Of a stretch of 53,791 nucleotides of DNA, positions 6,172 through 47,710 are shown in pieces. Positions within the stretch are counted from its first letter, which is position 1; each line of letters starts with the position of its first letter. This DNA comes from Candidatus Saccharimonadota bacterium (GTDB lineage: Bacteria; Patescibacteriota; Saccharimonadia; Saccharimonadales; Saccharimonadaceae). The notes below the pieces were generated by a model. It was not told the DNA's origin and made no database searches. It saw nothing but the letters and a program-made list of their open reading frames with translations. The translations under genes were made by a program, and so were the position numbers. The DNA is taken from the NCBI GenBank assembly GCA_017511205.1, contig JAFWLE010000001.1, positions 1-53,791 of the forward strand. Reading direction: 5' to 3'.

Positions 6172-6882
6172 ATGGCTGAATATAAGTTGACGCTGGAAAA
6201 GCGTGAGATTACAGGGAAAAAATTGAAAAGTTTAAGAGCTAAAGGGCTAGTTCCTTCAGTGGTTTATGGTGGTAAAGAGCCAGTGATGCTAGCTTCTGAA
6301 TATGTAGAAACGGAAAAAGTTCTGGAGAAGGCTGGTTATCATTCACCAATCGATTTGACAGTTGATGGGAAGAAAAAGCTTGCAATTGCGAAGCATGTGA
6401 GTATTGATCCGGTTTCGAGAAGGATTATTAATGTAGAATTTCAAGCGATTTCGGCAAAAGCGGTGGTGGAAGCTACTACTCCGGTGGTGGTGGTAAACTT
6501 TGAAGAATCGGAGGCTTCAAAGACTTATCATTTGGCTATGACACAATCAATTGAGGAATTAGCCGTGAAAGCTAAACCAGCAGATTTACCGAGTGAATTA
6601 GAAATTGATGCTACGAAACTAGAGAATGTGGAAGATAAATTGACGATTGCGGATATCAAATTGCCTGAGGGTGTGGAATTTGCGGATAAAGAGTTGGATT
6701 CTGAACAAGTGGTGGTATCATTGTTTGACCCGGCAGTTGAGGCAGAAAAACGGGCAGCGGAAGAAGCTGCAGCGGCGGAAGCTGAGGCGGAAGCTAGCGA
6801 AGGTGCGGAAGAAGCTGAAGAAACTGAAAAACCAGCTGAAGAGACCAAAGAAGAGTCTGACTCCGAAAAAGCAGCAGAATAA
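6172..6882 (+). CDS. rplY: 50S ribosomal protein L25 (TL5/CTC type) with long acidic tail
   Basis: L25 binds 5S rRNA in the large subunit. Residues 1-90 form the L25 core (LTLEKREITGKKLKSLRAKGLVPSVVYG, with the typical G-K-LR-G-PaVvYG pattern). Residues 95-185 form the TL5/CTC beta domain (PVVVVNFEESEA, LPSELEIDATKLE, GVEFADKELDSEQVV). The final 45 residues are an Ala/Glu-rich acidic tail (AEAEAEASEGAEEAEE). The total of 236 residues is at the long end for CTC proteins because of this tail. The stop lies one base from the stop of the convergent aldolase fusion, with no obvious terminator between them. Confidence 0.93.
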   Translation: MAEYKLTLEKREITGKKLKSLRAKGLVPSVVYGGKEPVMLASEYVETEKVLEKAGYHSPIDLTVDGKKKLAIAKHVSIDPVSRRIINVEFQAISAKAVVEATTPVVVVNFEESEASKTYHLAMTQSIEELAVKAKPADLPSELEIDATKLENVEDKLTIADIKLPEGVEFADKELDSEQVVVSLFDPAVEAEKRAAEEAAAAEAEAEASEGAEEAEETEKPAEETKEESDSEKAAE

Positions 6883-43182: not shown

Positions 43183-43223
43183 GCCTTATATTATACATCA
43201 AAATATGTTATAATTTTATTCAC

Positions 43224-43266
43224 AATAACAGATAGAAAGGTTGGTTTTGAATTTAAAGATCGGAAT
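43224..43266 (+). pseudogene. Detached copy of the ychF leader and first codons
   Basis: The segment is nearly identical to 44961-45004, the leader and first codons of ychF, apart from one indel and a few substitutions; the start codon ATG has become TTG. A TATAAT at 43209-43214 lies upstream of it, like the box before ychF. It looks like the remnant left when a 1.7-kb block was inserted at, or duplicated with, the ychF 5' end. Confidence 0.8.
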
Positions 43267-43387: not shown

Positions 43388-43780
43388 ATGCAAAATAAGA
43401 GAAAAACTGGAATCTATATCGCACCAGGTCGCAAGCCTTGGCCTCATGAGCTAAGAGTAGCAGAAATTCTTTCTTTAGCTGGGCATTATATTGAATTCTT
43501 AGAAGAAGGAAATTTACATACCGCAGATATTAAACTAGATGGTATAGAATACGAAATAAAATCTCCAGAATCTTTCAACTCAAATACTTTTGAACATAAA
43601 CTAAAAGACGCCACAAAGCAATCGCCAAATTTAATCATCGATACTTCTCGTATGAAAAAGGTCCGAGATTTGAAAGTTCGTAATTTTCTCATTAATCAAA
43701 TGCGCAAACAGAAACAAATTAAACGTATGGTTATGGTAACAAAACGCGGTCAAATTATTGATATTTCTGCGCTAATTTGA
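43388..43780 (+). CDS. CdiA-CT-like (PD-(D/E)XK) RNase-type protein
   Basis: The 130-residue protein resembles the tRNA-nuclease CdiA C-terminal toxin family. A predicted catalytic core, TADIKLDGIEYEIKSPES (Asp, then Glu-x-Lys), is followed by SNTFEHKLKDATKQSPNLI and IDTSRMK, with a C-terminal KRMVMVTKRGQIIDIS. The E-x-K motif is that of PD-(D/E)XK nucleases. It stands alone, without the secretion domains of CdiA and without a clear immunity gene next to it. It might be a domesticated nuclease, an effector, or part of a toxin pair. TATAAT (43376-43381) lies six bases before the ATG at 43388. It sits in an islet with different codon use from its surroundings. Confidence 0.72.
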   Translation: MQNKRKTGIYIAPGRKPWPHELRVAEILSLAGHYIEFLEEGNLHTADIKLDGIEYEIKSPESFNSNTFEHKLKDATKQSPNLIIDTSRMKKVRDLKVRNFLINQMRKQKQIKRMVMVTKRGQIIDISALI

Positions 43781-43844
43781 TATAATATATGTATCGAAGT
43801 TCTTGCAGGGCGCAGTATGTGCCGAGCGCGAGAGCTTCTTTTTT
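43781..43844 (+). ncRNA. Small-RNA-like unit 1 (promoter, hairpin, T tract)
   Basis: TATAAT (43781-43786) is followed by GTATC and a stem-loop, GAAGTTCTTGC/GCGAGAGCTTC (43796-43838), ending in TTTTTT. An inner GCGCAGTATGTGC can form a second hairpin. The predicted RNA is about 50 bases. It has the same plan as unit 2 directly downstream. Confidence 0.6.
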
Positions 43845-43848
43845 ATGA

Positions 43849-43912
43849 TACAATGTTATCGAAAGTCCGCCAGGCAGTGATGGATATGCACAGGTTCGGG
43901 GCTTTCTTTTTT
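43849..43912 (+). ncRNA. Small-RNA-like unit 2, tandem paralogue of unit 1
   Basis: TACAAT (43849-43854), then TTATC and a stem GAAAGTCC/GGGGCTTTC (43861-43906), ending in TTTTTT. Shared with unit 1 are TATCGAA, CAGG, CAGT, an ATGTGC or ATGCAC stretch and CTTTCTTTTTTATG or CTTCTTTTTTATG. Spacing from box to stem is the same in both. The HD gene's TACAAT follows five bases after the T tract. Confidence 0.6.
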
Positions 43913-43928
43913 ATGCTACAATATAGAT

Positions 43929-44945
43929 ATGAAAACTGCGAAAACAATTGGTTACTTTAAAATTTTGAGCGCGGATTTTCCGGAATGGTTAAATGCTTAT
44001 ACCAACACCAAGGAACTCCAAACCCAAAAATATATCAGCACTACTTGTGGCACATTATATACTGATTTGTTTGATAGTGATATTTTTTATTCTAGCTTAG
44101 ACCATTCTATTGCAGTTGCACTAATTGTCTGGCATTTTACCCACGATAAAAAACAAACTCTTGCTGGATTGTTCCATGACATTTCAACTCCCGCCTTCAA
44201 ACACTGCGTAGATTTTATGAATGGAGATTATCTAAAGCAGGAATCTACAGAAGATTTAACCACTGAATTCATTAAAAAATCTCAAGACGTAATGAATATG
44301 CTTAAAAAAGACAATATTAAGATTGAAGAAATCGATAATTATCATATTTATCCAATCGCTGACAACGATACGCCAAAACTATCTGCTGACAGACTAGAAT
44401 ATTCATTATCTAATGCGCTATTTACTTACAAGCTATTAAGTCTAGCAGAAGTCAAAGAAATATACAATGATATAGAAATCGAGCAGAATGAATCAGGGGA
44501 GCCGGAACTCGGTTTCAAAACTAAATCCATCGCTAGAAAATTTGTCCAAGTTACCAGTAGAATGTCCGTCATTTATCGTGATGATAGAACTCGCTTTTCT
44601 ATGCAATTTATTGCCGATATATTAAAAAGACTAAAAGAAAGTGGCAAGATTACGATAGAAGATTTATACGACGATAAGGAATCTGATATTATCAAAATAA
44701 TCGAAAGTTCAAAATATAAAGATATCTGGAACACTTGGCGAAAAGCCAAAAAAGTTAATATTTCAAAAACTGAGCCCAAAGATGTTTACTATGTACATCA
44801 AAAATCTAAAGTCCGCTACATAGACCCGCTATGTAATGGTAAACGTATGTCAGAAATCTGCAAAATTGCCAAGAATGCTATCAATAAAAACCTTTCTTAT
44901 GATATGGATAACTACGTCTATCTAGATTTTAAACTCGGAAAATGA
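43929..44945 (+). CDS. HD-domain phosphohydrolase
   Basis: The 338-residue protein has the HD metal-binding residues in SSLDHSIAVALIVWHF, AGLFHDISTPAFKH (the HD pair) and a downstream Asp in SADRLEYSL. This pattern is found in dNTPase-like and SAMHD1-like phosphohydrolases. The C-terminal part is Lys-rich with DVYYVHQKSKVRYIDPL. The substrate is unknown; nucleotides are likely. TACAAT (43917-43922) lies six bases before the ATG. Neighbours are a CdiA-CT-like nuclease and two small-RNA-like units, between two copies of the ychF leader, so the block may be an acquired stress or defence module. Confidence 0.82.
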   Translation: MKTAKTIGYFKILSADFPEWLNAYTNTKELQTQKYISTTCGTLYTDLFDSDIFYSSLDHSIAVALIVWHFTHDKKQTLAGLFHDISTPAFKHCVDFMNGDYLKQESTEDLTTEFIKKSQDVMNMLKKDNIKIEEIDNYHIYPIADNDTPKLSADRLEYSLSNALFTYKLLSLAEVKEIYNDIEIEQNESGEPELGFKTKSIARKFVQVTSRMSVIYRDDRTRFSMQFIADILKRLKESGKITIEDLYDDKESDIIKIIESSKYKDIWNTWRKAKKVNISKTEPKDVYYVHQKSKVRYIDPLCNGKRMSEICKIAKNAINKNLSYDMDNYVYLDFKLGK

Positions 44946-44984
44946 TATAATTATACCCATAATAACAGATATCATAGGTTGGTT

Positions 44985-45974
44985 ATGAATTTAAAGATCG
45001 GAATTGTTGGGTTGCCAAATGTGGGAAAATCCACATTGTTTAATGCGTTGACAAATGCGGGAGCGCTTGCGGCGAATTATCCTTTTGCAACGATTGAACC
45101 AAACGTCGGGATTGTGCCGGTGCCGGATGAGCGATTAGATGTGCTAGCTAAAATGTATGAAACAGAAAAGATTGTACCTGCGACGGTGGAATTCGTGGAT
45201 ATCGCTGGTCTAGTCAAAGGCGCTTCGAAAGGTGAAGGACTTGGTAACCAGTTTTTGGCGCATATTCGGGAATGTCAGGCGATTTGTCATGTAGTGAGAG
45301 CCTTTAAAAATGGTGACATCGTGCGAGCGGATAATGTGCCAGAGGATGATATCGTAAAACAGGCTAAAGATGATATCGACATTATTAATTTAGAGTTACA
45401 ACTAGCTGATGACGAAACAAAAGCGAAGATTGCGGCGAAGCGGAAAAAGGATCCAAATGATGAAAACATTCCGTTTCTGACGGATAAGCCGGTAATTTAT
45501 ATGTTTAACGTAGATGAGAATGGCCTAACTGATAAAGATTTGCAGGAGAAACTGCGTGACTTAGTAAAGCCGAATGAAGCAATTTTTGTGAATGCGAAGT
45601 TAGAGGAAGAAATGTCAGATATGGACCGCGAGGAAAGGAAGGAATTCTTGGAGAGTTACGGCGTAAAAGATGATGCTCTGGGCGAGCTGATTAAGGCGGC
45701 CTATAAGACACTGGGTTTGCAGTCATTCTTGACGGCTGGTAAAAAAGAATGTAGAGCTTGGACGATTAAAAAGGGAGCAACGGCGCCAGAAGCGGCAGGT
45801 ACGATTCACACGGATTTTGAACGCGGTTTTATTGCGGCACAAATTTGTAATTATGATGATTTGAAGAAACTTGGTTCGGAACAGGCGGTAAAACAGGCTG
45901 GTAAACTGCGTACAGAGGGTAAAACTTATGTAATGCAGGATGGTGATGTGGTGGAATTTAAATTTAACGTTTAA
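44985..45974 (+). CDS. ychF: Ribosome-binding ATPase YchF
   Basis: YchF (Ola1) is an Obg-family P-loop ATPase that binds ribosomes and responds to stress. The 329-residue protein (usually about 363) has G1 GLPNVGKSTLFNALTNAGALAANYPFATIEPN split at residues 8-40, G3 DIAGLVKGASKGEGLGNQF, the NVDE segment replacing the canonical G4 (which changes specificity to ATP) and the C-terminal TGS domain (KKECRAWTIKKGATAPEAAG, DGDVVEFKFNV). The ATG at 44985 is preferred over a TTG two codons upstream. The leader is duplicated at 43224-43266. A TATAAT lies at 44945-44950. Confidence 0.96.
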   Translation: MNLKIGIVGLPNVGKSTLFNALTNAGALAANYPFATIEPNVGIVPVPDERLDVLAKMYETEKIVPATVEFVDIAGLVKGASKGEGLGNQFLAHIRECQAICHVVRAFKNGDIVRADNVPEDDIVKQAKDDIDIINLELQLADDETKAKIAAKRKKDPNDENIPFLTDKPVIYMFNVDENGLTDKDLQEKLRDLVKPNEAIFVNAKLEEEMSDMDREERKEFLESYGVKDDALGELIKAAYKTLGLQSFLTAGKKECRAWTIKKGATAPEAAGTIHTDFERGFIAAQICNYDDLKKLGSEQAVKQAGKLRTEGKTYVMQDGDVVEFKFNV

Positions 45975-46984: not shown

Positions 46985-47710
46985 ATGAAATTGAAGGTGC
47001 GGAGAGTATCGGTGGCGGTGTGCGCTTTTGTGGCGGCGCTGATTTGGTTAATAGTCAATCCGGCGAGCTACGAGGCGATTTTTACGCAAGTAGAAAATAC
47101 TGGTGCGGAAGGGGGAATTGAAGACGCAAATCAGGCTAGTGAAGGTAGTGAAAAAAAAGCGACAGAAGTTTTAGAAGAATTAGAAGTAAAAGGGAGAGCG
47201 CCAAAAACTGGATATAAAAGAACGGAGTTTTACGATGGTTGGCCGACGGTGGAGGGTTGTTCGCTAAGACAAAAAATTTTGAAGAGAGAATTAGGTGATA
47301 CGGCGGTTTTAGATGGATGTAACGTAATAAAAGGTGAATATGATGAACCTTATACGGGCGAACATAAGGTGTTAAACAGTCGAGAAGAGGTAAGTAAAAT
47401 TCAAATTGACCATGTGGTGGCGCTTTCGGATGCATGGCAAAAAGGAGCGCAACAATTATCTAAGGAAAAGCGATATGAGCTTGCTACAGACCCTTTAAAT
47501 TTGTTGGCAGTAGATGGAGCGGCAAATAAGAAGAAATCTGATGGTGATGCGGCGACGTGGTTGCCTTCTAACAAGAAGTTTCGCTGTCAGTACGTGGCAA
47601 GGCAAGTTTCAGTGAAAAGAAAGTATGCGCTATGGGTGACAGTGGCTGAAAAGGAAGCGATTTTGAAAGTTTTAGAGAAATGTCCGAACGAAATGGCGGT
47701 AGGAATGTAA
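46985..47710 (+). CDS. Secreted HNH nuclease (DUF1524/GmrSD C-terminal type)
   Basis: The 241-residue protein has an N-terminal signal or anchor (VAVCAFVAALIWLIVNPASY), an acidic linker and a nuclease domain from residue 75: YDGWPTVEGCSLRQKIL, LDGCNVIKGEYDEPYTG, the HNH-like IQIDHVVALSDAWQKGAQ (catalytic DH) and DPLNLLAVDGAANKKKSDGD, then ATWLPSNKKFRCQYVARQV. This matches secreted DUF1524-family nucleases known in Gram-positive bacteria. Extracellular DNA or RNA degradation would suit nucleotide scavenging by an organism with few biosynthetic pathways. TATAAT (46972-46977) lies seven bases before the ATG. Confidence 0.87.
   Translation: MKLKVRRVSVAVCAFVAALIWLIVNPASYEAIFTQVENTGAEGGIEDANQASEGSEKKATEVLEELEVKGRAPKTGYKRTEFYDGWPTVEGCSLRQKILKRELGDTAVLDGCNVIKGEYDEPYTGEHKVLNSREEVSKIQIDHVVALSDAWQKGAQQLSKEKRYELATDPLNLLAVDGAANKKKSDGDAATWLPSNKKFRCQYVARQVSVKRKYALWVTVAEKEAILKVLEKCPNEMAVGM

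Follow-up and report, generated by a model that had tools for sequence, protein, structure and literature searches.

A nuclease gene and a small RNA gene directly behind it, found in a 53,791-nucleotide stretch of DNA from a Candidatus Saccharimonadota bacterium (contig JAFWLE010000001.1; hereafter the window), look like a previously undescribed toxin-antitoxin system with an RNA antidote in the Saccharibacteria, which are ultra-small, streamlined epibionts living on other bacteria. It is likely that both genes form a toxin-antitoxin (or toxin-immunity) module, in which the RNA would bind and neutralise a toxic nuclease. The best reading of the loci described below is a type III-like toxin-antitoxin family, which combines a CdiA_C tRNase-type toxin with downstream RNA antitoxins that stack into arrays. 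The RNA-antidote reading is based on the family and fold of the nuclease, its invariant residues, the near-universal RNA neighbour, the promoter embedded in the nuclease gene, the covariation of the RNA, the matched diversification of RNA and protein and the retention of the RNA where the nuclease is broken or lost. No description of this nuclease-RNA system was found in the open-licence PMC literature searched.

The nuclease and the RNA units of the window

The window nuclease matches the Pfam family CdiA_C (PF18451) with 34 bits, the cut-off being 26.6, and all 83 members of an alignment of its relatives match PF18451 at an E-value of 0.01. The residues E21, D47, E56 and K58 are invariant in this alignment. 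The AlphaFold model of the protein (pLDDT 93.3) has its top PDB match in 4g6v, the CdiA-CT tRNase of B. pseudomallei 1026b (Foldseek E 1.3e-5; VIA: Z 14.3, rmsd 2.6 over 116 residues), followed by 5j4a; PDB matches of the model outside CdiA-CT are weak (XisH, Z 7). A profile of the 83 relatives also recovers 4g6v (E 4e-7), and the CdiA_C and 4g6v matches span the whole length of the nuclease. Both 4g6v and 5j4a are PD-(D/E)XK tRNases; their cleavage sites lie in the acceptor stem of tRNA-Ala and the T-loop of tRNA2-Arg (PMC9086364). Judged by family and predicted fold, the window nuclease is most likely a tRNase, with a tRNA as its presumed target.

In the window genome (796 kb in 12 contigs), the nuclease is present as a single copy. 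No MuF match was found in this genome, and the window protein consists of the nuclease domain alone. CdiA/TPS domains were not found in the window genome either, an absence that is only suggestive because the search was run without a positive control. Beside the nuclease there is no CdiI-type immunity gene; the next protein-coding gene encodes an HD-domain dNTPase, which is unlinked to the nuclease in relatives. The initial annotation had described a CdiA-CT-like nuclease with a D...ExK core that stands without an adjacent immunity protein, and this description holds: the Pfam match and the catalytic residues agree with it, the search of the predicted structure against CdiA-CT folds gives 4g6v as best PDB match, and a loss of catalytic residues among homologues, which was to count against the reading, is absent. 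It had also named two structured RNA units next to the nuclease; these are indeed present and lie between the nuclease and the HD gene (Table 1). At 46985-47710, the window encodes a protein that looks secreted and carries a GmrSD C-terminal (HNH-like) nuclease domain.

RNA1 matches the R1 model with an E-value of 2.9e-16 (this copy is included in the model), and its hairpin has a fold z of -4.1, with none of 200 shuffles being as stable. RNA2 matches the R3 model with an E-value of 9e-19, its copy being one of the six in the model; by energy alone its hairpin is not clearly exceptional (z -1.7; 11 of 200 shuffles), yet it is a member of a conserved family. A scan of both strands of the window for a -10 box followed by a compact hairpin and a T-run gave five matches, including RNA1 and RNA2. 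Family C RNAs, to which RNA2 belongs, are located directly behind other nucleases at four loci (L042, L045, L047 and L087). Since family C thus accompanies nucleases of its own elsewhere and the window genome contains a single nuclease, RNA2 is best read as a putative orphan antitoxin of another subtype.

Table 1. Features of the nuclease-RNA locus and its surroundings (positions in the window)
Feature	Position	Strand	Details and basis
Att-like repeat on the left side of the cargo (incomplete copy of the ychF 5' region)	43215..43262	+	Sequence; native ychF start at 44962-45005
CdiA_C-family PD-(D/E)XK nuclease, candidate tRNase toxin	43388..43780	+	130 aa; catalytic E21, D47, E56xK58; Pfam PF18451, residue invariance, predicted fold
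-35 box TTGATA of the RNA1 promoter, within the nuclease C-terminal codons	43758..43763	+	17 nt from the -10 box
-10 box TATAAT of RNA1, immediately past the nuclease stop TGA (43778-43780)	43781..43786	+	Sequence
RNA1, family A, candidate cognate RNA antitoxin	43793..43844	+	Predicted transcript of ~52 nt, hairpin 43796-43838 and T-run; R1 model, covariation, fold z
-10 box TACAAT of RNA2	43849..43854	+	Sequence, window scan
RNA2 (family C), antitoxin-like orphan from another subtype	43858..43912	+	Hairpin 43861-43906 and T-run; R3 model
HD-domain protein, dNTPase fold, neighbour outside the module	43929..44945	+	Predicted leaderless (-10 box TACAAT 43917-43922); fold, distribution

Distribution of the nuclease family and its phage relatives

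Among genomes that are nearly all drafts or MAGs and sample the relatives unevenly, the nuclease family was found in 49 of 100 related genomes (up to nine copies per genome) and, patchily across the class, in 90 of 295 genomes and 24 of 129 genera, the maximum being 12 copies in one genome. A Pfam CdiA_C scan of 333 genomes of the phylum gave matches outside the class in only four, most of them weak. When the RNA-A pattern was searched in 257 Gb of species genomes, it was found on 34 contigs, 31 of which are labelled Saccharibacteria, and most of these places have a nuclease directly upstream. Two MAGs from rabbits that are labelled Oscillospiraceae (L257 and L266) carry the nuclease together with RNA-A, and the gene content of L266 suggests misbinned Saccharibacteria DNA. 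In another family of the phylum, two loci (L237 and L240, in the genomes G589 and G544) encode nucleases that are CdiA_C-like and 172-180 aa long; behind them lies a candidate RNA gene in convergent orientation, with a TATAAT on the reverse strand, and the nuclease-RNA pairing may thus reach beyond the Saccharibacteria. A comparison with the PADLOC defence systems gave no meaningful match, a plasmid search for the nuclease found none, and viral collections queried with the window nuclease and an L053-type nuclease contained no relatives.

The nuclease-RNA family is probably linked to the MuF toxins of phages. Two IMG/VR phage contigs carry the nuclease together with RNA-A, and on the phage contig L279 the pair lies 28 bp behind MuF in the head operon, between the portal and scaffold genes. 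The MuF protein of this phage is 94% identical to a prophage MuF in a related genome (G044), and MuF is fused to CdiA_C in L296 and L299. RNA patterns of the families J and C were not found in viral contigs. The MuF polymorphic toxins of temperate phages resemble the system described here in that CdiA_C-like domains are fused to MuF and a phage copy of the module immediately follows MuF; they differ in that the nuclease here is a separate ORF with an RNA gene, whereas small ORFs downstream of MuF toxins have been described as likely immunity genes (PMC5576092). It is plausible that the nuclease has been exchanged between MuF toxins and stand-alone cassettes. In L299, the fusion of the C-terminal part of MuF to CdiA_C (1431-2172) is located directly behind ribosomal genes resembling rpsL and rpsG.

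These phage copies bear on the alternative that the locus is a mobile polymorphic-toxin cassette, whose nuclease is delivered to other cells, for example in phage particles as a relative of MuF, and whose RNA confers immunity on the producer and on cells with orphan RNAs. Biochemically the pair would be the same; its ecological role would be that of a weapon, not of an addiction or defence module. The module behind MuF in a head operon, the close relationship of that MuF to one in a related genome and the MuF-CdiA_C fusions all point in this direction, CdiA-CT and MuF domains are toxins whose delivery is established or proposed (PMC5576092), and the orphan RNAs and arrays described below resemble orphan immunity genes. 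However, the window gene and most other copies lack a MuF, TPS or other delivery domain, and the chromosomal copies have no known delivery route; this alternative is rather unlikely. Equally tentative is the wider proposal of a widespread RNA-based counterpart of polymorphic toxin/immunity systems, in which hypervariable CdiA_C tRNase-type toxins would be common to Saccharibacteria and their phages, each with a matched RNA immunity factor of ~45 nt, and orphan RNA arrays would record past toxins.

Occurrence, structure and diversification of the RNA gene

Downstream of the relatives of the window nuclease, a -10 box coincides with or closely adjoins the stop codon; a hairpin of ~35-50 nt, usually ending in a T-run, follows after 10-14 nt. 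Such a unit is present at 120 of the 122 intact nucleases with readable room downstream that were found by protein search (99 strong; 21 weaker or opposite-strand), a looser tally made partly manually or by eye, with manual judgement in the 21 weaker assignments. A strict automatic scan assigned the unit to 87 of the 122 nucleases and to 8 of 282 control ORFs; five of these eight are true units of nuclease loci, leaving a background of ~1%. The initial annotation had offered one of the RNAs as a possible partner of the nuclease and had suggested a survey of gene neighbourhoods for conserved co-occurrence; it is the RNA that is conserved beside the nuclease, and around 120 homologous loci support the partnership. 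Among 115 units whose -10 box is good, a -35 box matching at five or more of six positions is found at a distance of 16-17 nt in 73 (50 are perfect), compared with 7 of 575 random upstream points. In 71 of these 73 cases, the strong -35 box falls within the nuclease ORF, usually in its last codons. The RNA gene thus appears to possess a sigma-70-type promoter of its own, from which it would be transcribed. At four loci (L075, L208, L220 and L228), the RNA gene is located on the strand opposite to the nuclease, which indicates that the RNA is not merely the nuclease terminator.

An alignment of 37 RNA-A sequences, realigned with a covariance model and therefore fitted to the structure, which favours the pairing score, has 94.6% of cells paired compared with 83.0% after shuffling (reached by 0 of 500 shuffles). 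Changes on both sides occur in 14 of 17 pairs, and slid structures reach 39-52%. For the D/G families, a structure-free alignment gave 94.0% pairing, likewise reached by 0 of 500 shuffles, and a covariation score of 0.62 compared with 0.23 for shuffled alignments. Family C comprises only six sequences, in which 4 of 14 pairs changed on both sides. The covariation of RNA-A, examined for nested pairing, supports a two-stem hairpin. A coding function was rejected: since the stems covary and unit lengths vary by 1-2 nt within a family, the units do not encode peptides. A comparison of 21 stretches with Rfam 15 gave no match at gathering thresholds and only chance-level matches at E-values up to 5. 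On L062, a LOOT RNA (RF03000; 3021-3137, minus strand) is located ~1.2 kb from the nuclease-RNA locus.

The hairpin is unlikely to be an ordinary terminator, a regulatory RNA derived from the 3' end or a type I antisense RNA directed against the nuclease mRNA. Its position at the 3' end and the terminal T-run would be expected of such an element, but it has its own promoter with the spacing given above, its inner helix covaries, some of its genes lie on the opposite strand, and such units are rare at control genes. The type I antisense variant was rejected since there is no excess complementarity to the cognate nuclease mRNA (KS p 0.64).

The RNAs fall into about 36 sequence clusters, a number that depends on the chosen threshold, and share no single core, which is unusual for one type of antitoxin and counts against the RNA-antidote reading. 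The RNAs ToxI and CptI likewise differ between families. A recurrent apical-loop motif, YUGRAU, is shared by 7 of the 36 representatives of the clusters (2000 shuffles: mean 1.0, at most 6) and was not used as evidence. RNA similarity correlates with nuclease identity (Mantel r 0.76; 0 of 2000 permutations), a correlation that is also expected from simple co-descent of linked genes and to that extent counts against the reading. At equal nuclease identity, copies within one genome resemble each other in their RNAs no more than copies in different genomes do, which indicates that the RNA tracks its nuclease. Between nucleases of 70-90% identity, the identity of the RNA is 0.92-0.95 and that of the nuclease DNA 0.70-0.78; the sequence beyond is at ~0.4.

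A genome-wide search for family A, in which the authors' own count covers all places and the surroundings of six were inspected, yielded 46 places: 29 behind an intact nuclease, four behind a broken one, 12 orphans or array members and one contig-end duplicate. In L134, the nuclease is deleted down to its last codons and the RNA is kept; L135 looks similar. RNA arrays were found in the window (A-C), in a relative of the same genus (A-C-A; L002 in G001) and in L003 (A-C), and further ones in L214 (A-F), L226 (two units), L246 and L274 (both C-A). RNAs without an intact nuclease are thus common and nucleases without an RNA nearly absent, an asymmetry that is expected of a toxin and its antidote and difficult to reconcile with a guide or a terminator. 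That the RNA is a cofactor or guide, which activates or targets the nuclease as in RNA-guided systems, is accordingly improbable; the tight pairing of nuclease and RNA would suit such a role, but the RNA persists without the nuclease while the converse is seldom seen, and family A RNAs are near-identical across many genomes and lack a variable spacer. A family-A-like hairpin without a nuclease is present on L268 (~6548-6590, minus strand), a contig of a Coriobacteriia MAG with the str ribosomal operon, beside a DinD/BRO-like gene; it could be an orphan RNA in a group that includes hosts of Saccharibacteria, or a chance match.

The neighbouring HD protein, known systems and proposed mechanism

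The HD protein of the window is of the dNTPase type, as initially proposed: its predicted fold is closest to the dNTPases EF1143 and SAMHD1 (E 1e-6 to 3e-5), and H59, H83-D84 and D154 are conserved. Its proposed membership in a module with the nuclease did not stand. The HD gene occurs in 18 of 100 related genomes, mostly without the nuclease, and adjoins a nuclease nowhere but in the window and at a single distant homologue (L109/L087); elsewhere it is separate cargo of an insertion hotspot upstream of ychF (without the nuclease in G012 and G030) or found in unrelated places. The observation named beforehand as speaking against the link, nuclease homologues far from any HD protein, was thus made, and on the strength of this distribution the HD protein was rejected as partner of the nuclease. 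The initial interpretation therefore stands in part, namely for a CdiA-CT-like nuclease with an RNA partner instead of an immunity protein, and falls for the HD protein. The hotspot is marked by partial copies of the ychF 5' region, of which 13 were found in 11 related genomes; ychF lies 0.3-2.2 kb downstream of 11 of them, and the cargo in between varies. At these loci (the window, L281-L293, L134, L092 and L095), the promoter and start codons are copied, at times in tandem, which resembles a site-specific integration in which the start of the gene is restored; a recombinase was not identified at the hotspot. That the HD gene is hotspot cargo explains its adjacency to the nuclease in the window. 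A single defence module of nuclease and HD dNTPase, suggested by this adjacency and by the plausibility of both proteins in defence, is thus largely refuted by the gene neighbourhoods and highly improbable.

Among known systems, the type III toxin-antitoxin systems ToxIN, CptIN and TenpIN come close, as they also consist of a small nuclease-type toxin and a structured RNA with a terminator. A structured non-coding RNA adjoins the toxin gene here as well (at the 120 of 122 loci, with covariation), and in type III systems, too, RNA and protein diversify together (PMC5086642). However, the toxin fold is CdiA_C PD-(D/E)XK rather than ToxN, CptN or TenpN, and the RNA lies downstream, with its own promoter in the toxin gene and at times on the opposite strand, whereas type III RNAs are upstream tandem repeats in one operon with one promoter and a terminator in between. 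As these two defining features, toxin fold and gene order with promoter, differ, the system was not filed under ToxIN, CptIN or TenpIN. In addition, its units are single or form arrays of different subtypes, and two-stem hairpins are predicted from an analysis of nested pairing, in contrast to the known type III pseudoknots. AbiF is a protein toxin neutralised by an adjacent non-coding RNA with its own promoter and terminator (PMC12373285), an arrangement that resembles the one found here and the antidote role proposed for the RNA; AbiF, however, is HEPN-type with a ~100-nt RNA upstream (RCd22, Rfam RF03085), and the present system has a CdiA_C nuclease and an RNA without Rfam match. With the CdiA-CT/CdiI pairs of B. 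pseudomallei 1026b and E479, the nuclease shares the fold and catalytic residues of PD-(D/E)XK tRNases, but it is a stand-alone gene with no CdiA filament found beside it and an RNA instead of CdiI.

In the proposed mechanism, the upstream gene would produce the 130-aa CdiA_C nuclease, most likely a tRNase, and the sigma-70-type promoter built into the end of this gene, including its stop codon, would drive a two-stem hairpin RNA of ~45-52 nt that is closed by a terminator of its own. Binding of the RNA to the nuclease, specific for each subtype, would block the enzyme, perhaps by mimicking its substrate, in the way that ToxI acts on ToxN. The nuclease would become active once the short-lived RNA was lost or overwhelmed, for example when a phage takes over the cell or the locus is lost. 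RNAs whose toxins are lost or foreign may be kept and stacked behind resident units, thereby providing protection against other subtypes.

If confirmed, the system would add a tRNase-fold toxin family to the few in which a protein toxin is directly neutralised by RNA, and its dozens of matched RNA-protein pairs would allow specificity to be compared. It would also give the Saccharibacteria an abundant conflict system, with up to 12 copies per genome, and link stand-alone modules to toxins encoded among phage head genes.
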